Assembly (NCBI GenBank): GCA_017555845.1
Contig: JAFZFO010000037.1
Location: forward strand, 100,058 to 164,057
Length of the DNA stretch: 64,000 bases
Reading direction: 5' to 3'
Source: Bacteroidaceae bacterium
Lineage (GTDB): Bacteria > Bacteroidota > Bacteroidia > Bacteroidales > Bacteroidaceae
The translations under genes were made by a program, and so were the position numbers. The notes beneath the pieces are model-generated. The model searched no databases, was not told where the DNA came from, and worked only from the letters and a program-made list of their open reading frames with translations. The first letter of the stretch is position 1. Each line of letters begins with the position of its first letter. Positions 44,890 through 57,914 of this stretch are shown here, piece after piece.

Positions 44890-44913
44890 CGAATGTTCCA
44901 CGTGGAACATTCG
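44890..44913. promoter_or_regulatory. parS-like ParB binding site
   Basis: A perfect 24-bp palindrome whose central 16-mer, TGTTCCACGTGGAACA at 44894-44909, matches the conserved bacterial parS centromere sequence (TGTTnCACGTGnAACA). ParB-type CTPases load at such sites to organise the origin region for segregation. It lies between the apt start and the mnmG stop, and I found no second copy in the window. A dual role as a hairpin is possible but no U-run follows. Confidence 0.85.
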
Positions 44914-44914
44914 T

Positions 44915-46786
44915 TTATTTCCGCACCAATACCAAGAGTACGTTTATATCACTTGGCGAAACACCAGGTATTCTGCTTGCCTGTGCAAGTGTCTCGGGAT
45001 TAATGGCAGTGAGTTTCTGACGTGCCTCGGTTGATAGTGATTCTATATTGTTGTAATCAAACTTACCTTTTATACGTATATTCTCCAAACGTATCATACG
45101 CTCGGCCAACTCACGTTCACGATCAATATATCCCCTGTATTTAATTTCTATTTCTGTTGCTTCAACAACCTCATCACGGGAAGCACCCAACTTCTCAAGC
45201 TCACGTTTGAGTGGTAGTATATATTCAGCAATACTCTCAATTGTAATCTGTGGGCGCTCAATCAATGAAACCAATTTACATCCGCGCACAAGTGGGGTAG
45301 TGCCAAGTTCCTCAAGTCCCTTATTGATAAGATCGGCTTTGATAGAGAAGTTAGAAATAAACTCTGTCAACTGAGCTATCTGCTCTTTTTTATCACAAAG
45401 CTTCTTATACCTTGCATCACTTGCCAAACCAATAGAATGCGATTTTTCGGTAAGGCGCATATCGGCATTGTCCGAACGCAACAGTATTCTATACTCAGCT
45501 CTTGAAGTAAACATTCTGTATGGCTCATCAACACCTTTTGTTACCAGGTCGTCAATAAGTACACCTATATATGCTTCATCGCGACGCAACACAAACTCCT
45601 TTTTTGAATCTATTTTCAAAGCAGCGTTTATACCTGCAATCAATCCTTGACCGGCAGCCTCTTCATAGCCGGTAGTACCATTTACCTGACCGGCAAAATA
45701 CAAGCCATCTATTACCTTTGATTCGAGTGTATGCTTCAACTGTGTAGGATCAAAGTAGTCATACTCTATCGCATATCCAGGACGGTAAGCAACAGCGTTG
45801 GCAAGTGCCGGTATCTGACGGAGTGCTGTCAACTGCGCCTCCATTGGTAATGATGAGGAGAAACCATTCACATAAATCTCTTGTGTTGTCTCACCCTCGG
45901 GTTCAAGGAACAGAAGATGGCGGTCACGCTCGGCAAAAGTTACAATCTTGGTTTCAATACTTGGACAATATCTTGGACCTATACTCTGTATCTGGCCATT
46001 GTAAAGCGGGGAGTCATCAAGGCTGTCGCGCAATATCCTATGCACCTCTGGGTTAGTGTAACACCCCCAACAAGGCAACTGTTTCAGTTCGCGCTTGGTA
46101 TCATCATATGAAAAACGATGAAAATCGTTATCACCATCCTGAATATCAACCAATTGTAAATTGATTGAACGTTTGTCAAGACGCACCGGTGTACCGGTTT
46201 TCATACGGCCGGATGTTATACCGAATTTAGTTATACTCTCGGTCAATCCTTTGGCAGCAGGCTCAGCAACTCTTCCTCCTTCAATCTGCACCTTGCCTAT
46301 ATGCATAAGTCCGTTAAGGAATGTTCCTGCAGTTATGACCACAGCTCCAGCTCTGAATTCAGCACCCAGCTGGGTCTTTACTCCTTTAACCTTTCCTTCC
46401 TCGACAATAAGTTCGACAGCAATATCCTGCCACATATCAAGGTTAGGAATATTCTCAAGTATTTCTCGCCAATATTGGCTAAATTTCATTCTGTCACACT
46501 GCGCACGTGGACTCCACATTGCAGGTCCCTTGGAACGGTTGAGCATCCTGAACTGGATTGAAGCCTTGTCGGCAACAATAGCAGTGTAACCACCAAGAGC
46601 ATCAATTTCCCTTACAATCTGTCCTTTTGCAATACCACCGATTGCAGGGTTACAGCTCATTTGAGCAATCTTGTTCATATCAATAGTCATAAGGCAAGTC
46701 TTCTTTCCAAGATTTGCCGCAGCTGCCGCAGCCTCGCATCCAGCGTGGCCCGCTCCTATAACCAAAATATCATACTCAAATGTCAC
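44915..46786 (-). CDS. mnmG: tRNA uridine-5-carboxymethylaminomethyl modification enzyme MnmG (GidA)
   Basis: 623 residues. FAD-binding [19 protein letters not shown] at residues 8-26, the signature [37 protein letters not shown], and a second motif [11 protein letters not shown]. The C-terminal helical domain ([13 protein letters not shown] ... [18 protein letters not shown]) is the MnmE contact. With MnmE it modifies the wobble uridine of several tRNAs. In many bacteria this gene lies near oriC and parAB, which fits the adjacent parS site. It has its own near-perfect promoter. Confidence 0.98.
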
Positions 46787-46915: not shown

Positions 46916-48091
46916 CTACTTTTTGTAGAGTTCGATAATAGTTATCTCGGGACGTGCGCCAATGCGTGCAAAGTATCCCACACAGCCAATGCCGTCATTG
47001 ATATACAATCTGCTTTCTCCATCCTCATATAAACCACTCCACTCATTATACATGAATTTGGCAGGAGAGCAGCCTCCTATCTTCATCTGCATTGCGTGTA
47101 CATGACCGCTAAGGGTAAGGTCGCTGTACCCACTTTCATGAAGAGAGTGCCACAACTGTGGTAAATGTGAAACAGTAATATTGAAAACAGAAGCGGACAC
47201 ATTATTATATATATTGTCAATATCTACACCTTTTACAGCATCGGTAGAATGCTTGTATTTTAACAACTCCTCATTATAATCAATACCGGTTACAGATATG
47301 GTATCCTTCTCCTTATGTATATATATAGTACTATCTCTCAGAACCACCCAACCGGCGCGTTCCATCTTAACCTGTAGAGTATCCATATTCGTACTTCTTT
47401 GGGCTTTATTGGAGCTTTTAACATACGCACCAGTATCATGATTACCAAAAACCATAAAAACGCCGTCAGTTGCCTTAAAATGAGAATATACTCCAAGCAG
47501 GGGCTCATTGATCTCGGAATGATGTATGTTGATCATATCGCCACCGAAAAGTATAAGGTCAACATTGTTTCTATCTATGATTCCATTTATTTCATCAAGT
47601 TGTTCAACAGGAGATATCATTGAACCGATATGTATATCGGAAATGAAAGCCACTCTATATCCATTGAATTCAACAGGGAGGTTTTCAAAATACAACTCCA
47701 CCTTGTTTACCTTATAATTCACTCGGGTTACAAAGACTGAATATATGAATGTCAAAAAAAGAGCCGATGAGACTGCAATAGCTATCCACAACCAAACCCT
47801 TCTACTCGACGGTAACCAGATACAGTAAAAGAGTAGCCTCGGCAAAGACAGTGCGAGATATGTTGTCAACAATGCCATCGCGACCTTCATCATGAAAGCG
47901 CAATTCCCTTCGTTTATAAAAAAGTACATGAGAAGTGGAGTGGACAATATAAGCAGATATGATACAGCCACAACAGAAAGAAAGGCACATCTTACCACAT
48001 TGTTGATTCCACTCTTTGATATGCGATGATAAGCCTTATAATCGAGATATATTCCAAACAAGGCAATGAATATGGTTATTGCAATTGTCAT
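46916..48091 (-). CDS. Membrane-anchored calcineurin-like metallophosphoesterase
   Basis: 391 residues. Four hydrophobic segments occupy residues 1-130 (MTIAITIFIALFGIYLDY, LSVVAVSYLLILSTPLLMYFF, MALLTTYLALSLPRLLFYCIW, LWIAIAVSSALFLTFIYSV). The phosphoesterase domain follows with all metal motifs: FISDIHIGS, LFGGDMINIHHSE, FGNHDTGAY, VSHLPQLW and SGHVHAMQ. This resembles YkuE/UDP-diacylglucosamine-hydrolase-like proteins that act on lipids or envelope nucleotides, but the substrate is unknown. It is the last gene before the AT-rich intergenic region. Confidence 0.93.
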   Translation of the reverse strand: MTIAITIFIALFGIYLDYKAYHRISKSGINNVVRCAFLSVVAVSYLLILSTPLLMYFFINEGNCAFMMKVAMALLTTYLALSLPRLLFYCIWLPSSRRVWLWIAIAVSSALFLTFIYSVFVTRVNYKVNKVELYFENLPVEFNGYRVAFISDIHIGSMISPVEQLDEINGIIDRNNVDLILFGGDMINIHHSEINEPLLGVYSHFKATDGVFMVFGNHDTGAYVKSSNKAQRSTNMDTLQVKMERAGWVVLRDSTIYIHKEKDTISVTGIDYNEELLKYKHSTDAVKGVDIDNIYNNVSASVFNITVSHLPQLWHSLHESGYSDLTLSGHVHAMQMKIGGCSPAKFMYNEWSGLYEDGESRLYINDGIGCVGYFARIGARPEITIIELYKK

Positions 48092-48636
48092 AGTCTTACA
48101 TTTACTTTTAACTTATTTGGTCAGTATATTCCATTTATCCACTCTTTCAACCGATCTTATATTATATATATCCTTTTTAAAAATTTAAAAAGATTAACAA
48201 CAACAATAACTCCTGTTAATAATGATGAGAAAAAATATCAATAAAACTTGCATTTTGACTTATTAGTTTAAGAGAAATAGATACTAACATCTTTTCAACA
48301 AGTCAAAATATTGATAAATAATCAATTGTGTGTAGTTATCAACAATCTACTACCTACCTTTTCCCTTGATAAAAAGTGTTCATTTGGCTGTTGAAAACTG
48401 TTGATATCATACTTGAAAAAAAGTCATTAAAAAATGGTAAAATAATTTGGTATTTTAATTGCATCTTTGGCTTATCCAATTGTTCATAAAAACAAAATTG
48501 AAAAGACATTTTTTTTACTTTACTTTTCAAGTTGTTTTCAACACTTTATTAACAATGTTTTTAACATATGTTTTAAACAATCCAATACAAATGTACTGTT
48601 TTACTCTTTCAAATAATTAAATGGATTAAGTTTTAA

Positions 48637-48785
48637 GTAACAATATAGATGTTGACCCAATGTTGACATTATTCGCAAATTTGTCATCCTGAACGGATGT
48701 GAAGGATCTCATAACCACGCAGAACAGAGATACTTCGCTTTGCTCAGTATGACAGGGGCCGCTGGGTTAACTTCTATATCGTTAC
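48637..48785. repeat. Composite inverted repeat (REP/MITE-like)
   Basis: Outer arms GTAACAATATAGATGTTGAC (48637-) and its near-complement ending ATCGTTAC at 48785 match at 20 of 23 positions. Nested inside is a second imperfect dyad: TGTCATCCTGAACGGATGTG (48682-) against CTTTGCTCAGTATGACA (to 48754). The inner part resembles the GTCATCCTGA...CTCAGGATGAC repeats scattered through Bacteroidales genomes (from memory). No coding sequence. Confidence 0.7.
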
Positions 48786-48912
48786 CTAAATTTATATAAA
48801 ATCAAAAATACTTGATATACTTTTCCTGATTTTTCTGCAAAGTATAGGTTTTCTTCATCAAAAATAGAGTTATCTTCTTTTTGTATAATAAAAAATATAG
48901 CCCACGTTACAA

Positions 48913-48960
48913 TGAAGTGAACCCCAAAAGTTAGACAAAAAACTTTTGGGGTTCACTTCA
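48913..48960. repeat. Perfect 20-bp-arm palindrome resembling IS3-family ends
   Basis: TGAAGTGAACCCCAAAAGTT (48913-48932) and its exact complement (48941-48960) flank AGACAAAA. The AACCCCAAAAGTTAGACAAAA part resembles terminal repeats of IS3-family (IS150-like) elements of Bacteroidota, so this may be a MITE or excision scar. It lies 22 bp past the SusD-like gene stop and might also end its transcript, although no U-run follows. Confidence 0.65.
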
Positions 48961-48982
48961 GTCATGACATGTTAATAGATAA

Positions 48983-50881
48983 TTAAAAATTGGCTTTATC
49001 CACATCCCACCACAAACGTGTTGCTTGCTCATCGGGTCCACCTAATCTTTTTATTCCACTTTCTTCTATCAATTCTTTTGTTTTCTCATCTGTTGGAACC
49101 CAAGGAATACGACGGATTATATCTCCATACTGTAAACTTCCGTCACCATCTTCAGGGTTCAGTACTGGGAATAGTTTCGGGTATCCTGTTCGGCGCAATT
49201 CGGTCCATGCCTCTGTTGATAACGGGAACAAAGCAATATACTTCTGTGTAATGATTTTTTCAAGCTTTGTCTCCTTGTCGTCTGTATCGTTCCATTTGAC
49301 ACCTATTTCAGTGGGAGATTTCCAAGGCTCACCTTCACCTGTCGGGTCAATATTCCAGTACTCTGTAGCTGTCTCCTGCATCATATACTCTTCGACAAGG
49401 CTATTGTATGGCGATTGGTCAACGAATATCGGACAGTCAAAGTAGCCGTTGCGGATACCGCGCTCATAGAAGAACTGTGCATCGCCACCCATGTTCCAGC
49501 CACGGAGAGCACCCTCGGCACGCAAGAAGTCAACCTCGGCCCACTTGATGAAGTAGAGTGGAGGCATTGCCATACCCCAGCTCTCTGTGTTGATCTTTGA
49601 GAATGCCTGGAGTTGGTTGATAGAGTAGACCTGACCTGTACCGACCATTGTACCAGAACGCAAACCGCAGATTCTTGTACCTGTTGGGAGTGTCTCCTCC
49701 TCCTCTTCGTTGAAAATCTCGTTGTTGTTGTTGTCGAACACATAGCCCGCCTTTGAGTATGGGTGGTTCAAACTCATCATCAATGTCTCGAGTGAAGCCG
49801 AGAGAACAAGGTCACCCCAGCTGTTGATGATGTTGATGAGTGGGTGGCTAAAGCCAAGGAAAATTGGGTAGAGACCCTGCTGCTCCCATTCGCTCTCTAT
49901 CACACCACCATTTTCAGGAGCAACTGCAGCCTCGGCCCACTTCTTTGCTGTGGCTGGCTCAACCTTTACAATGTGCATAGCCATACGGAGTTTCAAAGAG
50001 TTTGCGAGCTTGATGTATGTGCTGAAGCCCATGTCGCTCTCAAGGTAGAATTTTGGGTTTGTATCGTGGAATTGTGACAATACACTAACAATCATCTCTT
50101 TGTACCAATCAGGACGGTTGTTCTCATAATACTGTAAGCAGGCAACGATGTTGTCGAGGTCCTTTACGATAGCATAGTAGATGCTGCGTACGTTGTTGTA
50201 GACGCGTGGGTTCGCAAGGTTCTGCTTGTCATCGAAATATGTATAAGGACCTGCAAGGTCAGCCTGCTCCTGTGCTGTGATACAGTAGAACAACAGATTG
50301 ATTGCCTTTATTTCCGGGATGTTGTTTATCTGTTCGGTGTTGAGCAATGGAATGAACGCGTCCTTTGCAATTGTGTAGCTGCCTAAGGCATTACTGTTGA
50401 AATCGGCCGAGAGGTCATAGGTTGATGTGTGCCTACCATACATGAAGTCGTAGTGGGGGATAGTGAAATAACCCGCATAAAGGTCCGGTCCAAATGAGTA
50501 CTGGCGCTGGTAAGCGTGTGATGCAGGCTTTTCGCCATAATTGTTGCCACCACGCATGGCATAACGGCCACCCATTGCCTGGGCAAACTGTACCTGGAGT
50601 GCATTTATTGCTTGAGCTACTTCTTCCTGTATTAATTCTCTCTTGTAGTCGAGCTTGTCGGCCTCTGTATCAATATATACAAGCTCGTTGAGACTGGCTG
50701 TGTCTACAGGAGTAGTTGTATTTATCTTATAATAAAAATCTATAAAATCTATATTGTCAATTTCAAAACTTGTAACACCATCAGTTGTGTGTATTTGCAT
50801 AATCTTTACAGTGTCTACAATCTGTGCATTTACGGCTAAAGTAAACAACAGTGCAAAAGTGGAAATAATCCTTTTCATCAT
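48983..50881 (-). CDS. Orphan SusD-like protein without lipobox (SusD-like_2 type)
   Basis: 632 residues. The signal peptide MMKRIISTFALLFTLAVNAQ ends in a normal signal-peptidase-I site, with no cysteine, unlike true SusD lipoproteins. A short domain KIMQIHTTDGVTSFEIDNID (about residues 28-47) resembles the start of many Bacteroidota secreted proteins. The rest matches the SusD/RagB superfamily: LLFYCITAQEQADLAGPYTY, KLANSLKLRMAMHIVKVEP, IKWAEVDFLRAEGALRGWN, EKIITQKYIALFPLSTEAWTELRRTGYP, and a WWDVDKANF end typical of SusD-like_2. No susC is adjacent. Its start overlaps the small T9SS-tail gene by four bases. Its location and partner are unknown. Confidence 0.88.
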   Translation of the reverse strand: MMKRIISTFALLFTLAVNAQIVDTVKIMQIHTTDGVTSFEIDNIDFIDFYYKINTTTPVDTASLNELVYIDTEADKLDYKRELIQEEVAQAINALQVQFAQAMGGRYAMRGGNNYGEKPASHAYQRQYSFGPDLYAGYFTIPHYDFMYGRHTSTYDLSADFNSNALGSYTIAKDAFIPLLNTEQINNIPEIKAINLLFYCITAQEQADLAGPYTYFDDKQNLANPRVYNNVRSIYYAIVKDLDNIVACLQYYENNRPDWYKEMIVSVLSQFHDTNPKFYLESDMGFSTYIKLANSLKLRMAMHIVKVEPATAKKWAEAAVAPENGGVIESEWEQQGLYPIFLGFSHPLINIINSWGDLVLSASLETLMMSLNHPYSKAGYVFDNNNNEIFNEEEEETLPTGTRICGLRSGTMVGTGQVYSINQLQAFSKINTESWGMAMPPLYFIKWAEVDFLRAEGALRGWNMGGDAQFFYERGIRNGYFDCPIFVDQSPYNSLVEEYMMQETATEYWNIDPTGEGEPWKSPTEIGVKWNDTDDKETKLEKIITQKYIALFPLSTEAWTELRRTGYPKLFPVLNPEDGDGSLQYGDIIRRIPWVPTDEKTKELIEESGIKRLGGPDEQATRLWWDVDKANF

Positions 50882-51345
50882 CTTATGATTTTAAATGAGT
50901 GATTGTTTACTTTTATTATATATACTCCTTTTTGAAGTGTGTTCAATTCAATCTTCGCACAATTGTCGCTCTTTGTTAAAATAGTGTCACACACTCTTCC
51001 ACTTATGTCATACACATTTATATCTGCATCCCCGGCAACTCCTTCTATGAACAGTAAATCTGGGTTGGTATATGTGAAGTGAATTTTGTCTATATTTTCA
51101 TTGACATCACTGATACCTGTATCATCCACCTCTTTAAAATAATATTTTATAATATCCAATAAATTATAAGATATCTCTATTTCAGTGGTTTTTATAACCA
51201 GTCTATCATTTTCAAAACTTATAATAGGTTTATCCAGTAATGAATAACTGTGTTGTTTTGAGTTATTCATTTCTATTACCAGATGATAATCGGCATACAT
51301 TGGTAATGAGAATAAAATGGCTAAAATAAATAATATCTTTTTCAT
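50878..51345 (-). CDS. Small secreted protein with T9SS type A sorting domain
   Basis: 155 residues. Signal peptide MKKILFILAILFSLPMYA, then a single small beta domain (YHLVIEMNNSKQHSYSLLDK, PIISFENDRLVIKTTEIEISY), then a linker and a type A T9SS tail of about 70 residues (ADINVYDISGRVCDT, LQKGVYIIKVNNHSFKIIR). It is almost all tail, with very little cargo. The gene overlaps the SusD-like gene by four bases. No consensus promoter lies upstream, only the aspC terminator-like hairpin 18 bp before the start, so expression may rely on read-through. Confidence 0.85.
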   Translation of the reverse strand: MKKILFILAILFSLPMYADYHLVIEMNNSKQHSYSLLDKPIISFENDRLVIKTTEIEISYNLLDIIKYYFKEVDDTGISDVNENIDKIHFTYTNPDLLFIEGVAGDADINVYDISGRVCDTILTKSDNCAKIELNTLQKGVYIIKVNNHSFKIIR

Positions 51346-51362
51346 GACATAAATAAATTAAT

Positions 51363-51407
51363 AAGGTTACCACCATCTTGTATTGATACAAGACAGTAGG
51401 TAACCTT
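51363..51407 (-). terminator. Terminator-like hairpin after the aminotransferase
   Basis: Outer stem AAGGTTACC/GGTAACCTT and an inner stem CTTGTA/TACAAG separated by mismatched loops. It lies 16 bp past the stop at 51423 and is followed on the minus strand by TTATTAATTTATTT. Confidence 0.65.
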
Positions 51408-51422
51408 TAAAAATAATTTTTA

Positions 51423-52616
51423 TTACTGTAGTTTTGCAAGTGCCTCCTTGATGCGGCGTATAGCTTCAACGATATTCTCATCGCTTGTAGCGTAGCTCAT
51501 TCTGAAGCATTCAGGTGCACCGAACGATGTACCGCCTACAGCAGCCACGTGAGCCTCGGTCAACAGGTACATTGCGAGGTCATCGCTGTCGTTGATAACT
51601 GTTCCATTGTAGCTCTTGCCATAGAATGAACTGCATTTTGGGAACAGGTAGAATGCACCCTCTGGAACATTGACCTCAAGACCAGGAATCTCTTTTGCAA
51701 GCTTTACAATGAGGTCACGACGGCGCTGGAATGCCTGGCGCATCTCTTCAACTGGCTCCTGTGAACCTGTGTAAGCCTCCAATGATGCCATCTGTGAAAC
51801 AGAGCAAGGTCCACTTGTGTACTGTCCCTGCAACTTGTTACAACCCTTTACAATCCACTCTGCAGCGGCAAGGTAACCAATGCGCCAGCCGGTCATTGCA
51901 TATGCTTTTGAAACACCATTGATGATGATTACACGCTCTCTGATCTCCTCAAACTGTGCAATACTCTCATGCTTGCCTACATAGCTGATGTGCTCATAAA
52001 TCTCATCAGCAACAACGAATACCTGTGGATATTTTGCAAGTACATCGGCAAGTTCCTTCAATTCTTCCTTGGTATATACCGAACCTGTTGGGTTTGATGG
52101 AGAACACAGGATCAACATCTTTGTCTTTGGAGTGATGGCAGCCTCAAGCTGTGCTCCTGTGATTTTGAAGTTCTGCTCAATACCAGCACTTACAATAACT
52201 GGTGTACCGTCGGCAAGCTTAACCATATCGGGGTAGCTTACCCAATAAGGAGCCGGTACAATAACCTCATCGCCTGGATTTACAAGTGCCATGATAGCGT
52301 TGCACACAGCCTGCTTCGCACCGTTCGATACTGAAATCTGTGTCTCCTTGAACTCCAATCCGTTCTCATTCTTTAGCTTTTCAACAATAGCCTTGCGCAA
52401 TGATGGATAACCGGGAACTGGAGAGTAACGTGACCAGTTGTCATCAATAGCCTGCTTTGCTGCAGCCTTAATTGCGTCTGGGGTGTTGAAATCTGGTTCA
52501 CCGACACTCATATTTATAACGTCTACGCCCTGTACTTTCAACTCCTGGCTTTTCTGTGACATAGCCAATGTTGCCGATGGCGCCAATCGGTTTACGCGAT
52601 CTGATAATTTGTTCAT
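51423..52616 (-). CDS. aspC: Aspartate aminotransferase, class I/II PLP-dependent
   Basis: 397 residues. The PLP lysine is near residue 238 in INGVSKAYAMTGWRIGYLA. Other fold-type I residues are SVGEPDFNTPDAI, SVSNGAKQAVCNAIMAL, CSPSNPTGSVY and VVADEIYEHISY. The FRMSYATSDENI end includes the substrate Arg region. It interconverts aspartate and oxaloacetate with glutamate as partner; close relatives also act on aromatic amino acids, so aspC is the likeliest but not certain name. It is 12 bp downstream of ribBA and probably in one operon with lptF/G and ribBA. Confidence 0.93.
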   Translation of the reverse strand: MNKLSDRVNRLAPSATLAMSQKSQELKVQGVDVINMSVGEPDFNTPDAIKAAAKQAIDDNWSRYSPVPGYPSLRKAIVEKLKNENGLEFKETQISVSNGAKQAVCNAIMALVNPGDEVIVPAPYWVSYPDMVKLADGTPVIVSAGIEQNFKITGAQLEAAITPKTKMLILCSPSNPTGSVYTKEELKELADVLAKYPQVFVVADEIYEHISYVGKHESIAQFEEIRERVIIINGVSKAYAMTGWRIGYLAAAEWIVKGCNKLQGQYTSGPCSVSQMASLEAYTGSQEPVEEMRQAFQRRRDLIVKLAKEIPGLEVNVPEGAFYLFPKCSSFYGKSYNGTVINDSDDLAMYLLTEAHVAAVGGTSFGAPECFRMSYATSDENIVEAIRRIKEALAKLQ

Positions 52617-52628
52617 ACAGTATCTTTG

Positions 52629-53852
52629 TTAGTTATTTTTCTTATTGAAATGAAATGTGTGTCCCATACGTTCTGCCTTTGTATGCAGGTAGCGTGAGTT
52701 GTGGTTGTTAGGCTCAATTTCAATACCTACAATTTCAGTTATTGTAAGTCCGTAGCTCTCGAGTCCAAGTCTCTTTACAGGGTTGTTGGTAATGAGTCGC
52801 ATGTTGTGTACACCTACCTTGCGCAGAATCTCGGCGCCAACACCGTAATCTCTCTCATCGGCCTTGAATCCAAGACACAGGTTTGCATCCACGGTATCCA
52901 TACCCTCTTCCTGCAACTTGTACGCACGCATCTTGTTCATGAGTCCAATACCGCGTCCCTCCTGGTTAAGGTATACTACAACACCCTTTCCTGTTTCATT
53001 GATGAGTTTCATTGCCTCATGGAGCTGTGAACCGCAGTCACAACGCTGTGAACCGAAAATGTCTCCGGTCATGCATGATGAGTGTACACGTACAAGTATA
53101 GGTTCATTCTCATCCCACTCGCCCTTGATGAGTGCAACGTGTTCAAGACCGTTTGATTTCTGACGGAATGGTATAAGGCGGAAATGTCCGAACTCTGTTG
53201 GCATATCAACCTCCTCGCCCTGCTCAACAGTAGATTCCTGTTTAAGTCTGTATTCAATGAGGTCCTTGATTGATATTATTTTCAGGTTGTGCTCCTTTGC
53301 AATCTCAACCAGCTGTGGCATACGTGCCATTGTACCATCCTCGTTCATGATCTCAATGAGGGCTGCAGCAGGGTAGAGTCCTGCAAGGCGTGCAAGGTCA
53401 ATACTTGCCTCTGTGTGTCCTGCACGGCGCAATACGCCATTGTCCTGGGCATACAAAGGGTTTATGTGTCCAGGGCGTGCAAATGTCTCGGGCTTGCTGT
53501 CGGGCGATGCCAATGCCTTGATTGTTGCAGCACGGTCAGCGGTAGATACTCCGGTAGAACAACCCTCAACCTTGTCAATGGTCACTGTAAACGGTGTACC
53601 CAACAAGCTTGTGTTTGAACTTACCTGTGGTGCCAGATCAAGTTCTTTGCAACGTGACAATGTAATAGGGGCGCAAAGTACTCCGCGTCCGTTCTTGAGC
53701 ATGAAGTTAACAGCCTCGGGAGTAATCTTCTCGGCAGCTATGATAAAGTCGCCTTCATTCTCTCTGTCCTCATCGTCAACTACAATAAGGAACTTACCCT
53801 CTCTGAAATCCTCGAGAGCCTCCTCAATCGTATTTAATTTAAATCCGTTCAT
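52629..53852 (-). CDS. ribBA: Bifunctional DHBP synthase / GTP cyclohydrolase II
   Basis: 407 residues, a fusion. The N-terminal DHBP synthase (1-200) has [20 protein letters not shown] and [20 protein letters not shown]. The C-terminal GTP cyclohydrolase II (205-400) has [20 protein letters not shown] with the zinc cysteines, [20 protein letters not shown] and [20 protein letters not shown]. Both reactions start riboflavin synthesis, supplying FAD for MnmG and the fumarate reductase flavoprotein. No FMN riboswitch is visible; the gene overlaps lptF/G by four bases. Confidence 0.98.
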
Positions 53853-55771
53853 TTATCTATATTTATAAGTTTTTCCCTTTTTATGATATTTATTATCTCT
53901 CTTGTCTTTGTTTCAACCTTTGTCAGTTCAATCATCAGTTTTATTCTGCCTCTTATTGAACGTGCATAAACCAAAAGGCTTATAGGCAATACCGGAAGCA
54001 AAATGATATTCATCCATCTCTTTTTGAAAGGAGATGATACCGCCTTTACATTCAATACCGGTATTTCATTCAGGTATATTATAATCTTTCTGTTCTCACT
54101 GTTGCTCAGCTCCTCAACGGTTTTTTCAAGTTTTCCATTCAATGTCTGCAGTACATAATCTTTCTCATTGAAGAACACTGTCTTTATTGAAGGGAGGCGT
54201 TTTAGCCTGTTCTTGGTCTTATAGATTCGTGAAATACTGTATATCTCCTTCAGATTATTGTAACACTTTTCATAGTCGGGAGTGTCAATTATAATCTCTT
54301 TAAGAGTTATCTGTCTTGCTTCGGATATCATGAATATCTTCTTGAAGAAACTCTTTATGGCATCATTTTTAAGTATTCCCGAGTCTTTGTTTGCCTGATA
54401 AGTAAAGAACAGTCCCAAAGGTACAAGAATCATTGTACTCCACCAAGAACCGAACCATATTTTCCACACACCTTCGCTTGCCATTTTTGAACCCGATGTC
54501 TCAAAAATGTAGTAAAGTATGAATGTTGCCACCGATATGATGATTGGATATCCCAAACCACCCTTTCTCACAATGGAGCCAAGTGGTGCACCAATGAGCA
54601 GAAAGACTATACAAGCCAATGAAAGTGTTATCTTCTCCCACCAGTATATCTTGTGCTTGTTGAGGTCCTTGTCAAGCTGGTGCAGTATCTTATCGTTTAT
54701 GTCATATGTATTCTTCAGGCTTGTGACATTCCTCAAGGCATCCCTTTTCCACATCAACTTCGACTTTTTTGTCGCGGCATTGTATATACTGTCCACATCC
54801 ATCCTGTATATACCATCCTTCATCATCAAAGTGGAATCGTTCCTGTCAAAGACAATCTTGTCCCTGTAGTTGTTGCGCTTCAGGTGTTTCAGGTTGTCAC
54901 GTCCTATGCTGTCGTTGGATATCTTCAGCGAGTCGACATCCTTTTCAAGCTGTTTCATGTTTTTACCGTCGGCTCTTGTCTTGAGGAAGTCGGCATCCTT
55001 TATTTCAAAACCACCCTCAGTTTCAATGACCACATCCTTTCTTGTAAAGCTTTCACGGCGGTAGTGTGTGTTCTTCTTATTTGAGTTTACCTCATCGAGG
55101 TTCGAGAACTGTTCTCCCGAGAACATTGACAGGATCATGAATCTCTCATCAACGGTATTCTTTATTAAAGCCGAATCGGAAACAAGTATGTTGGTCTTTT
55201 CAAAACCGGCTGACATGTCATATATGGTTACATCATACAACATACCGGTTTCGGTGTTCTTGTTCTTTATATATATGCTGTACCCATCGATTTTATTGTA
55301 GAATATCCTTTCGATAATGTCGCTTTCAGGTGATGTCTGTTTAATTGAATACATCATCCTCAAAAGTTTCATCTGTGCAACAGGTGCCACATTGTTCTGG
55401 AAGTAGAATGATATTCCACCAAACACTGCACAGCACATGAACAATGGAACAAGAGTTCTTATAAGCGGCACTCCTGCCGATTTCATTGCCAGCAGTTCCA
55501 GTTTCTCTCCAAAATTGCCGAATGTCATCAAGGCAGCAAGCAGTATTGCAAGTGGCAATGCTTTTGATACGAGTGATACCGAGCCGAACATGAAGAATTT
55601 TGCGATAATGGACATATCGAGTCCTTTTTCAACAAAATCATCAATCCATCTCCACAGCAGCTGAATGACAAAGATGAAAAGGCAAATGAAGAAGGTAGCC
55701 ATCAAATTTTTCAAAAAGGCCTTTATAATGAAAATATCCAACTTTTTTATGTAAAACCTGGGAAATTTCAT
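53849..55771 (-). CDS. LptF/LptG family LPS export permease
   Basis: 640 residues. Membrane segments cluster at residues 10-120 ([59 protein letters not shown] with the conserved ELLAMKSAG) and at about 375-470 ([32 protein letters not shown]). A long periplasmic domain lies between. The C-terminal 150 residues form an extra region ending in another hydrophobic segment, common in Bacteroidota homologues. It moves LPS from the inner membrane together with LptB. It could be LptF or LptG; the sequence does not decide. Confidence 0.92.
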
Positions 55772-55823
55772 ATTGGTTATGATGCGGTACCTTGCTGTTT
55801 AAATGGGTTATTCTATATATAAA

Positions 55824-55870
55824 GCACAGAAAACTGCACCCTTTAAAAGGGTGGCTACAGTTTTCTGTGC
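55824..55870 (-). terminator. Strong hairpin between the START-like gene and lptF/G
   Basis: GCACAGAAAACTG/CAGTTTTCTGTGC with an inner CACCCTTT/AAAGGGTG stem. It lies 43 bp after the START-like gene stop and about 50 bp before the lptF/G start. A TAAATTTG box (minus, 55870-55877) overlaps its edge, so the hairpin may sit at the 5' end of the lptF/G message. Confidence 0.7.
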
Positions 55871-55903
55871 AAATTTAGCATATTTTTTGGTTTATATGGC
55901 AAA
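55870..55903 (-). promoter_or_regulatory. Candidate promoter of lptF/G-ribBA-aspC
   Basis: On the minus strand TTTG (55900-55903), 22-nt spacer, TAAATTTG (55870-55877). The -7 box is exact but the spacing is one base over the usual range. Confidence 0.45.
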
Positions 55904-55912
55904 AAGTAGCCA

Positions 55913-56293
55913 TTACATACCCGATAGCCTTCTTAAATTTTCAATTTGTGAATTCCACAACTCCTTTTGGTCTTCAACCTCTCCTTTATCGGCAAAGTCC
56001 GTTATCTCAAGAGTGTTTTCGCGTGTAAGCTCATTATATGAAATTCTCATTTCGAAATAGGTGTTCTGTGATTCATCCTCCCACCTGAATTTGACATACA
56101 CTCCATTCCTTTGTGCCACAAGGTGTGCTACTCTTTTCTCGGTCTTACCCCAATAGAAGTTGTATGTACGGTCAAAACTTTCGACTTTGTCGGCGAACCA
56201 AGGCGACAACCCGGCGGATGTCCCGATATATTTCCATATCATCACCGCACTGCCTTTCATTGGGTATTCAAGAAAAATTTTCTCTTTACTCAT
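55913..56293 (-). CDS. START-like domain protein (SRPBCC fold)
   Basis: 126 residues. It reads as an AHSA1/START-like fold with the N-terminal FLEYPMKGSAVMIWKYIGTSAGLSPWFAD, then FYWGKTEKRVAHLV, VKFRWEDESQNTYFEMRI and a C-terminal helix NSQIENLRRLSGM. Such proteins are conserved single genes in Bacteroidales, with a hydrophobic cavity but no known ligand. A TAACTTTG box at 56301-56308 (minus) lies only eight bases before the ATG, which would make the message almost leaderless. Confidence 0.88.
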   Translation of the reverse strand: MSKEKIFLEYPMKGSAVMIWKYIGTSAGLSPWFADKVESFDRTYNFYWGKTEKRVAHLVAQRNGVYVKFRWEDESQNTYFEMRISYNELTRENTLEITDFADKGEVEDQKELWNSQIENLRRLSGM

Positions 56294-56466
56294 CCTAACG
56301 CAAAGTTATATGTTTAAACAAGTTATATATCTGCCGCAAGTTAATAAATATAAATTACAAATCAAATTTTTGCTTCCAATTTATCATAGTTTCCGCATGT
56401 CATTACCTGTTATTAAACAAAGTTTTTTGCTTAAAGGATTTTTTTTGATGAAAAAAGTCAAAAAAA

Positions 56467-56498
56467 TTTGTCTATTCAAAATTATAGACATATCTTTG
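56467..56498 (+). promoter_or_regulatory. Promoter of tRNA-Met
   Basis: TTTG (56467-56470), 20-nt spacer, TATCTTTG (56491-56498), full consensus; start near 56505, just before the tRNA. Confidence 0.82.
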
Positions 56499-56515
56499 CA
56501 CCGCAAAAATGCGAT

Positions 56516-56589
56516 GGCGAGATAGCTCAGCTGGTTAGAGCGCATGATTCATAATCATGAGGTCCCCGGTTCAATCCCGGGTCTCGCTA
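56516..56589 (+). tRNA. tRNA with CAT anticodon (elongator Met, or Ile2)
   Basis: 74-nt cloverleaf: acceptor GGCGAGA/TCTCGCT with a G-T first pair, discriminator A, D arm GCTC/GAGC, anticodon stem CATGA/TCATG with loop TTCATAA, T arm CCCGG-TTCAATC-CCGGG. The stem lacks the three G-C pairs of an initiator. Whether it is Met or lysidine-modified Ile2 cannot be settled by eye. Confidence 0.93.
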
Positions 56590-56592
56590 CTG

Positions 56593-56633
56593 AAACGGAG
56601 AAAGTTGAAAAACTCTCTCCGTTTTCTTTTTGT
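56593..56633 (+). terminator. Terminator after tRNA-Met
   Basis: AAACGGAGA-A-AGTT pairs with AACT-C-TCTCCGTTT, followed by TTTCTTTTTG. Confidence 0.82.
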
Positions 56634-56675
56634 ATTGTTGTCACGTTTGATTATCAGGAATTACGTGATATAAAT

Positions 56676-56713
56676 AAAGTGTCTGGATAGTCGACTAACT
56701 ATCCAGACACTTT
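56676..56713 (-). terminator. Terminator after the cation/proton antiporter
   Basis: A perfect 16-bp stem AAAGTGTCTGGATAGT with a 6-nt loop, 13 bp past the antiporter stop; the minus strand continues TTTATTTATA. Confidence 0.85.
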
Positions 56714-56726
56714 ATTAATCCCAGTT

Positions 56727-57914
56727 CTATTTCGCTTGAACTTGTTGCTGCTCGGCTTTCAAAGCCAATCTCTTTACTATTACCACAAAGCCACCTGTGA
56801 GAATAAGGTTGGACAGGATTGTAAGCAATGAGATTACCAACAACGGGCCACCCAGTCCGTAACCTATAGAGACAAATATGATGCCGGCACCGACCTCTCC
56901 ACGGGTAAACATTCCTATACTCAGGGCAAGGCGCTCGGTAAGCGAGCGGTCTCTGTAGAAAAACATCGGTACCATTTTGCCTATGTTTGATAGTGCGGTA
57001 ACAACTGCTACGTGCATAGCTATTTCGCCCCACGACATAGAGCCTACTTGTGCTATTGTGCACTCTCCTGCCATTGCAGCAAAATCAACACCAACAAAGA
57101 GTGGGGCACTCATTCCCACCAGGAACATGAATATATAGGAGATTACCGTCGCTACACTCTCATCCATTTTTGTGTGGTGGTGATGTGGTTTCATTATCAT
57201 TCCAAGGATGAATGCAGGCAAAAGCACCTCGATATGAATGGCTGCATCAACTCCAAAGATCTGTTTTGAAAGAACATACAGCCCCTGGAATGCAAACACC
57301 AGGATGGTAGAATAACCCAGTATTGAACCCCACGACTGGTTTAGGTTATAGCGTTTCAGGTATTTCCAGCCAATGTACAGGCAAAGGAATACAACAAGTA
57401 CCACAACTCCCAGCTGCCAACGCAGGCCTATCATAAATACCTGCAGGGGAATCATCAGCAATATTGTATCAAGGTCGTCGAAGATGGCCAGTACGCGTGT
57501 CTTGTTATATATCCACGATGATTTGAGCCCTGCTGCCGCCAACATAGTGAACAGGATTCCTGCCGAGGTGGGTGCAGCAAAACGGCTGAGCAAAAGGGTC
57601 TCTTTCCAAGCGCTCCAATCGGTGAAATATTCCGATGGTAGTAGTACCATATAGTAAAAACATATCAGCAACCATGGTGCTGCAGCTGTTGCCATTGCAA
57701 TGAAATAGTCCGATGTGTATGAACGCCAATGACTCTTGTCGAGTTCGAATTCACGGCCAACGTTTATCATGATAAATGCAAGGCAGACATATAGCATCGA
57801 GTCAAAGACCGGTTTTGTCTGATTGAATGTAGCATCGCCAAGGATATTAGGCAATGTCTGCGAACATATAAGACCTAAAATAAGGAATGTTGAAAAAAGT
57901 ACTATCTTCTTCAT
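56727..57914 (-). CDS. Cation/proton antiporter (CPA2/Kef-like membrane domain)
   Basis: 395 residues with about 11-12 hydrophobic segments. CPA2 features are the two-aspartate region RVLAIFDDLDTILLMIP, the unwound-helix segments with SRFAAPTSAGILFTMLAAAG, and FTRGEVGAGIIFVSIGYGLG near the end. There is no C-terminal TrkA domain, so it is the membrane part alone. A cytoplasm- or periplasm-facing loop carries KPHHHHTK at 57174-57185, a possible metal or pH sensor. It probably exchanges Na+ or K+ for protons. Its upstream promoter is not clear. Confidence 0.9.
   Translation of the reverse strand: MKKIVLFSTFLILGLICSQTLPNILGDATFNQTKPVFDSMLYVCLAFIMINVGREFELDKSHWRSYTSDYFIAMATAAAPWLLICFYYMVLLPSEYFTDWSAWKETLLLSRFAAPTSAGILFTMLAAAGLKSSWIYNKTRVLAIFDDLDTILLMIPLQVFMIGLRWQLGVVVLVVFLCLYIGWKYLKRYNLNQSWGSILGYSTILVFAFQGLYVLSKQIFGVDAAIHIEVLLPAFILGMIMKPHHHHTKMDESVATVISYIFMFLVGMSAPLFVGVDFAAMAGECTIAQVGSMSWGEIAMHVAVVTALSNIGKMVPMFFYRDRSLTERLALSIGMFTRGEVGAGIIFVSIGYGLGGPLLVISLLTILSNLILTGGFVVIVKRLALKAEQQQVQAK

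Follow-up and report, generated by a model that had tools for sequence, protein, structure and literature searches.

A probable chromosomal replication origin in a Bacteroidaceae bacterium and its homologs in other Bacteroidales

The window, by which we mean the whole stretch of 64,000 nucleotides analyzed here (G000:C23:100058-164057), reaches the end of its contig, in an assembly of 71 contigs (2.08 Mb, 83 % complete). It carries mnmG (44915-46786), the best relatives of which, among the matches listed, include Bacteroides, Mediterranea, and Prevotella assemblies (about 67-71 % identity), a metallophosphatase gene and a SusD-like gene (48983-50881). No open reading frame was called between the gene start at 48091 (minus strand) and the gene end at 48983 (minus strand), and the features of the putative oriC listed below lie in or near this interval.

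44894..44909, no strand assigned: parS-like palindrome TGTTCCACGTGGAACA, the sole match to TGTTNCACGTGNAACA in the assembled genome
46916..48091, minus strand: metallophosphatase gene, left neighbor of the putative oriC in part of the genus (PF00149, linkage)
48152..48282, no strand assigned: left module of the putative oriC (model R2), consisting of A/T tract, trinucleotide array, spacer, box, and conserved TTG...TTATTAGTT stretch, aligned in eight genus members (own included) and in B. fragilis
48154..48193, no strand assigned: probable DNA unwinding element, predicted to unwind from its A/T richness
48195..48209, plus strand: DnaA-trio-like array of five A-centred trinucleotides, whose 3'-to-5' reading leads away from the box (from the sequence)
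48210..48213: 4-nt spacer between the array and the inward box
48214..48222, minus strand: DnaA-box-like TTATTAACA, its 3' end toward the array (plus-strand TGTTRATAG conserved in alignment A4)
48260..48268, plus strand: conserved TTATTAGTT (alignments A3 and A4)
48292..48300, plus strand: predicted DnaA box TTTTCAACA (motif scan)
48336..48344, plus strand: predicted DnaA box TTATCAACA (motif scan; in ten other genus loci, a box on the plus strand falls between +53 and +61 of R2)
48388..48567, no strand assigned: right module of the putative oriC (profile R1)
48389..48407, minus strand: tandem predicted DnaA boxes TTTTCAACA and ATATCAACA, 10 bp apart (motif scan, relatives' alignment)
48429..48451, plus strand: conserved 23-bp non-box motif AAAAAATGGTAAAATAATTTGGT (relatives' alignment)
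48535..48554, plus strand: tandem predicted DnaA boxes TTTTCAACA and TTATTAACA, 11 bp apart (motif scan, relatives' alignment)
48983..51345, minus strand: SusD-like and sorting-tail genes, between the putative oriC and an aminotransferase gene and outside the former (PF12741, PF18962)

An earlier note on this DNA had reported five TTWTCAACA-like 9-mers in both orientations between 48292 and 48543, in AT-rich non-coding DNA. The motif scan of the window bears this out: there are four exact boxes, at 48292 (plus), 48336 (plus), 48389 (minus), and 48535 (plus), and a copy one base off, ATATCAACA, at 48399 (minus), and the GC content of 48092-48660 is 0.237. The number of boxes exceeds the background expected from this composition, since none of 1000 dinucleotide shuffles of 48092-48660 reached the four exact boxes observed (shuffle mean 0.10), and none of 300 reached the 12 sites with at most one mismatch (four exact plus eight more, all in a single 600-bp window; shuffle mean 1.84). 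The four exact boxes belong to the right half of the conserved module. Two further 9-mers had been put forward: TTATCCAAT, taken for a flanking box, sits at 48472, amid the boxes rather than outside them, and TTATCCACA is indeed present at 48996, but was left out because it falls within the SusD-like gene, at the 3' end of the latter. To the left of the boxes, the 30-bp windows starting at 48157-48161 contain only two G+C each, the lowest value in 48092-48982; the A/T-richest part of the region (48157-48190) is located just beyond the trinucleotide array, the middle positions of which (48196, 48199, 48202, 48205, and 48208) are all occupied by A. An A/T-rich candidate unwinding element thus adjoins the boxes, and the extent of the origin should be stretched leftward to 48152 in order to include the unwinding half (48152-48282), which the earlier note had missed.

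The intergenic regions of seven other members of the genus align with that of the window over about 420 bp, in which strongly conserved blocks are present. Two profiles were used, R1 for the right half and R2, a sequence-only profile of 131 positions based on nine training rows including B. fragilis, for the left half; as both were trained on the window and its relatives, their matches to the training members arise by construction. In the assembled genome of the window, the candidates scored (17 for R1 and 11 for R2) pointed to a single location for the module, where R1 matches both strands, and R1 matches were present in 15 of 151 family genomes. When 11 candidates were scored per genome with stricter filters, R2 matched 112 of the 301 family genomes, distributed over 17 of 30 genera, with a single match in 102 of the 112 and two matches in 10; under these filters the other 189 family genomes gave no match, which counts against the oriC reading, as do the second, weaker R2 matches of G190 and G216. 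In the draw from the order, 20 of the 295 genomes were matched, 16 of them from outside the family. Among eight named loci, R2 matched two: a Rikenellaceae locus (L104, E 3e-8), where the match lies beside four boxes and 7 kb from mnmG, and, weakly, L108 (E 0.021). In six loci (L214, L215, L217, L220, L224, and L227), R2 gave a further match at its own position but on the opposite strand, which makes the A/T-rich left half partly palindromic.

The conservation of the 9-mers in related genomes had been proposed as a check, and the boxes do recur at set offsets from R2. In the 49 loci with an R2 match used to analyze the box geometry (most of the 112 family matches are not among them; G296, G070, and G229, in which the match is at or near the edge of the piece, and L108, L187, L193, L283, L285, L289, and L297-L300 were left out), the box density is 4.18 per kb beside R2 versus 0.236 per kb in the flanks. 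In 28 of these loci, a box on the plus strand begins or lies between +241 and +290 of R2, and 23 have two or more boxes in the 420 bp beside R2. Nine of the 49 have no exact box in these 420 bp, which speaks against the oriC reading.

The array and the spacer were compared in 36 of 48 rows, after dropping two duplicates, six opposite-strand rows, and four rows in which the search expression gave no box or which were cut. The spacer that adjoins the conserved TGTTRATAG box on its left usually reads AGCC (with C at -1 in 33/36 and at -2 in 25/36, G at -3 in 26/36, and A at -4 in 26/36). All 36 distinct elements have A at -6 and -9, and A or T at -5, -8, -11, -14, and -17. In the 18 genus rows all five middle positions are A, including -12, -15, and -18, while in the 18 rows from outside the genus A occurs at -6 and -9 in 18, at -12 in 2, at -15 in 11, and at -18 in 9. 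The period of three is thus shared, but an array of five A-centred trinucleotides is characteristic of the genus. As given in the available text of the source, the published search rule for a DnaA-trio calls for at least three N-A-N at no more than 16 nt from a box (PMC8287927). The window, with its 4-nt spacer and five N-A-N, conforms to this rule for a basal unwinding system (BUS), and so do all 18 genus rows; the strict rule does not hold outside the genus, where there are mostly two N-A-N in a row and the third A is found in 2 of 18.

The complete genome of B. fragilis Q1F2 provides a reference for the whole chromosome. In 20 samples of 20 kb each, its negative GC skew gives way to positive values between 4.42 and 4.68 Mb, and in the 240 kb read there the skew minimum lies at 4,492,976, inside the R2 match at 4,492,943-4,493,062 (E 8e-16; this site is a training row of R2). 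R1, trained on sequences other than B. fragilis, also scores highest at this site within the 20 kb that contain it (E 0.047). TTATCAACA occurs at 4,493,130 (minus), 154 bp from the skew minimum, and at 4,493,329 (plus). The site is flanked by genes for a putative quinolinate synthase and a putative RNA methyltransferase, both named from their translations; the second box falls within the 5' extension of the longest open reading frame of the RNA methyltransferase, which we assume to start at a later codon. The mnmG gene of this strain is 104 kb away from the skew minimum.

The cumulative skew of the window itself reaches its minimum at 57441, 9.0 kb to the right of the cluster, and the contig ends 6.6 kb beyond; since this minimum is too near the contig end, the skew of the contig cannot be used to place the origin. 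In the relatives G003 and G022 (read 88 and 72 kb rightward), the skew is negative to the left, positive from +5 kb onward for 70 and 60 kb, respectively, and then weakly negative, the raw minimum lying 5.2 kb to the right of the cluster. Two other relatives do not favor the oriC reading, as G025 has its minimum on the left side of the cluster, at a distance of 15.9 kb, and G018 on the right side, at 20.8 kb, where the sequence read ends. A gene-level model of third-position skew with a strand term placed the breakpoints at +9.7 kb in the window's own contig, +20 kb in G003, and +4.9 kb in G022, and gave no sharper position for the origin in these three. The skew of the genus by itself locates the origin only to within 5-20 kb.

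Ten near-complete genomes (nine in one contig and G303 in two) were each sampled with four 20-kb pieces around the R2 match. The skew is higher to the right than to the left of the match in all ten, and its sign turns from minus to plus there in eight. In six of them, the 40-kb cumulative minimum lies less than 400 bp from the match (offsets 35, -125, 84, 83, 387, and 223), and the chance of at least six of ten being so close, if the minimum were uniform in 40 kb, is about 1e-8. In G229, the minimum is 5.5 kb from the match. G190, G216, and G325 have good R2 matches with minima more than 10 kb away and one outer 20-kb sample each of the wrong sign, and their loci (L234, L230, and L237, respectively) have zero or one exact box beside R2; both observations weigh against the oriC reading, and inversions or diverged boxes are possible causes of the misfit. 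With B. fragilis counted, homologous sites thus lie at skew minima in seven of 11 complete or near-complete genomes. G452, a one-contig genome from another family, has six exact boxes between -273 and +119 of its R2 match, where the skew changes from -0.023 to 0.033, and its 40-kb minimum is 1.8 kb from the match.

A skew minimum located elsewhere had been named as grounds for rejecting the origin, and this is in part what the contig of the window shows, with its minimum 9 kb to the right, although the contig comes to an end 6.6 kb beyond it. The true origin might lie at the local minimum, around 57.4-58.2 kb, the box cluster being a secondary DnaA-binding site: besides the minimum at 57441 and the gene-level breakpoint at +9.7 kb, the main genes from 48983 to 57914 share the minus strand, a pattern that changes at about 58 kb. 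However, a single exact TTWTCAACA is present there (57888), the raw minimum of G003 and G022 is 5.2 kb from the cluster, and the minimum of B. fragilis falls inside the homologous module, while in the six near-complete genomes the distance between the two stays below 400 bp, so we regard this alternative as very improbable.

The neighborhood of the module was then considered. A close ortholog of the metallophosphatase (at least 47 % identity) was found in 11 of the 61 genomes searched, own included, and a group of at least three boxes spanning no more than 400 bp was present upstream of it in all seven relatives scanned (G003, G022, G025, G018, G032, G019, and G004); in G029, R1 and R2 matches also adjoin the ortholog. 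The mnmG gene, which had been cited as a typical origin neighbor, is close to the cluster in the window and adjacent in G003 and G022, but 15-35 kb off in the other five scanned relatives and, as mentioned above, far from the site in B. fragilis. The argument based on mnmG is therefore weak, since the module follows the metallophosphatase ortholog in the genus while its distance from mnmG varies, and mnmG was rejected as an anchor. At least three TTWTCMACA within 400 bp were found near mnmG in four of the 46 loci scanned (of 80 named), namely L082, L096, L104, and L108. The aminotransferase gene lies directly on the other side of the module in the seven aligned relatives; it was rejected as a universal neighbor, its best match in B. 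fragilis being at 5.10 Mb. Among the eight aligned genomes, the SusD-like and sorting-tail genes separate the module from the aminotransferase gene only in that of the window. The intergenic region to the right of the origin also contains a perfect inverted repeat (48913-48960), with arms of 20 bp and a loop of 8 nt, which is absent from the relatives' alignment, and a stretch with the look of a dispersed repeat (TTGTCATCCTGAACGGA...GTGAAGGATCTC, about 48676-48760), which is unaligned with the relatives.

Sites such as datA serve for the titration of DnaA or for regulation, and the DnaA-box-like sites together with their position upstream of the metallophosphatase gene could suggest a site of this kind or a promoter region; this is very improbable, given that the homologous module has other neighbors in B. 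fragilis, that the copy in the window has an unwinding-type array, and that homologous sites lie at skew minima. Clustered repeats in A/T-rich DNA could also belong to an integrated plasmid or phage, as its replication origin, a notion to which we give hardly any credence in view of the single R2 match in most matching family genomes, the ordinary chromosomal genes alongside, and the large-scale skew changes at the homologous sites; no Rep gene was detected among the ten neighboring proteins scanned with Pfam, one of which (56727-57914) had no family. A chance cluster, which the low GC content might favor, is scarcely conceivable in the face of the shuffling results and of the box offsets recurring in relatives.

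The parS site said to lie near the cluster corresponds to the palindrome 3.2 kb to the left of it, matching TGTTNCACGTGNAACA, which we take to be the parS consensus. One such site is present 3.2 kb from the module in each of G000, G003, and G022; of the complete genomes, three have it, with two sites 44-45 kb from the R2 match in G070, one 94 kb off in G338, and one about 104 kb off in G296, if this record is circular; no match was found in 8 of the 14 genomes searched, which tells against the oriC reading. The dnaA gene is on another contig (C40), and no box cluster was found around it, one box being present in the 20 kb read (L007). The available text of a Prevotella paper states that oriC is commonly far from dnaA in this phylum (PMC4755523), and a figure legend in the part available of a paper on Porphyromonas gingivalis takes the first base of dnaA as oriC (PMC5771137).

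Taken together, these data point to 48152-48567 as the chromosomal oriC of this Bacteroidales bacterium, a reading of the sequence to which we assign a probability of about 0.95. The box cluster, the inward box, the 4-nt spacer, the A-centred array, and the A/T tract are conserved in the genus as a unit; homologous sites occur at skew minima; the boxes are in excess over shuffled sequences and the module occupies a single place in the assembled genome; and the cluster stays upstream of the metallophosphatase gene in seven relatives, whether mnmG is adjacent or not. At such an origin, DnaA would load on the tandem boxes and on the box at 48214-48222, and a DnaA filament might then extend along the melted top strand of the array and open 48154-48209, letting in the replicative helicase. 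Two forks would depart in opposite directions, and ParB bound to the nearby parS-like site could aid the separation of the new origins.

We tentatively propose that the chromosomes of Bacteroidales may share one origin blueprint, kept while the gene neighborhood changes, which consists of an A/T tract, a period-3 array, an inward box, a conserved non-box stretch with TTATTAGTT at its end, and, some 250-270 bp beyond, boxes on the plus strand, and that the conserved non-box elements at 48223-48268 and 48429-48451 might be sites for an origin-binding protein new to the order. No description of the module was found in the literature searched, the DoriC tables, supplements, and subscription papers lying outside this search, nor did the literature searched yield any paper on a DnaA-trio in Bacteroides. 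With the profile, a likely oriC can be located in Bacteroidales genomes that are fragmented, with no need for dnaA, mnmG, or a complete skew curve, and the location of oriC is a prerequisite of growth-rate estimates from read depth. Beyond the oriC of the window, it is the layout common to Bacteroidales and the conserved non-box stretches, which are individually testable, that should interest specialists.

The oriC of Escherichia coli lies near mnmG and has an inward-facing box adjoining its unwinding element. Both features have their counterparts here, but the closeness to mnmG does not extend to all relatives. The oriC predicted in Prevotella intermedia OMA14, considered here by its reported coordinates, likewise has multiple DnaA boxes at a skew transition, with dnaA elsewhere (PMC4755523). 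As regards the basal unwinding system of Bacillus subtilis oriC, as described in the text available (PMC8287927), the box consensus here is TTWTCAACA versus TTATCCACA in the Bacillus subtilis-type system, most of the trinucleotides differ from 3'-GAT-5', and only the first two are always A-centred outside the genus; what the two systems have in common is a box near the unwinding tract, a short spacer, tandem boxes nearby, and, as far as the window and the other genus members are concerned, three or more A-centred trinucleotides.
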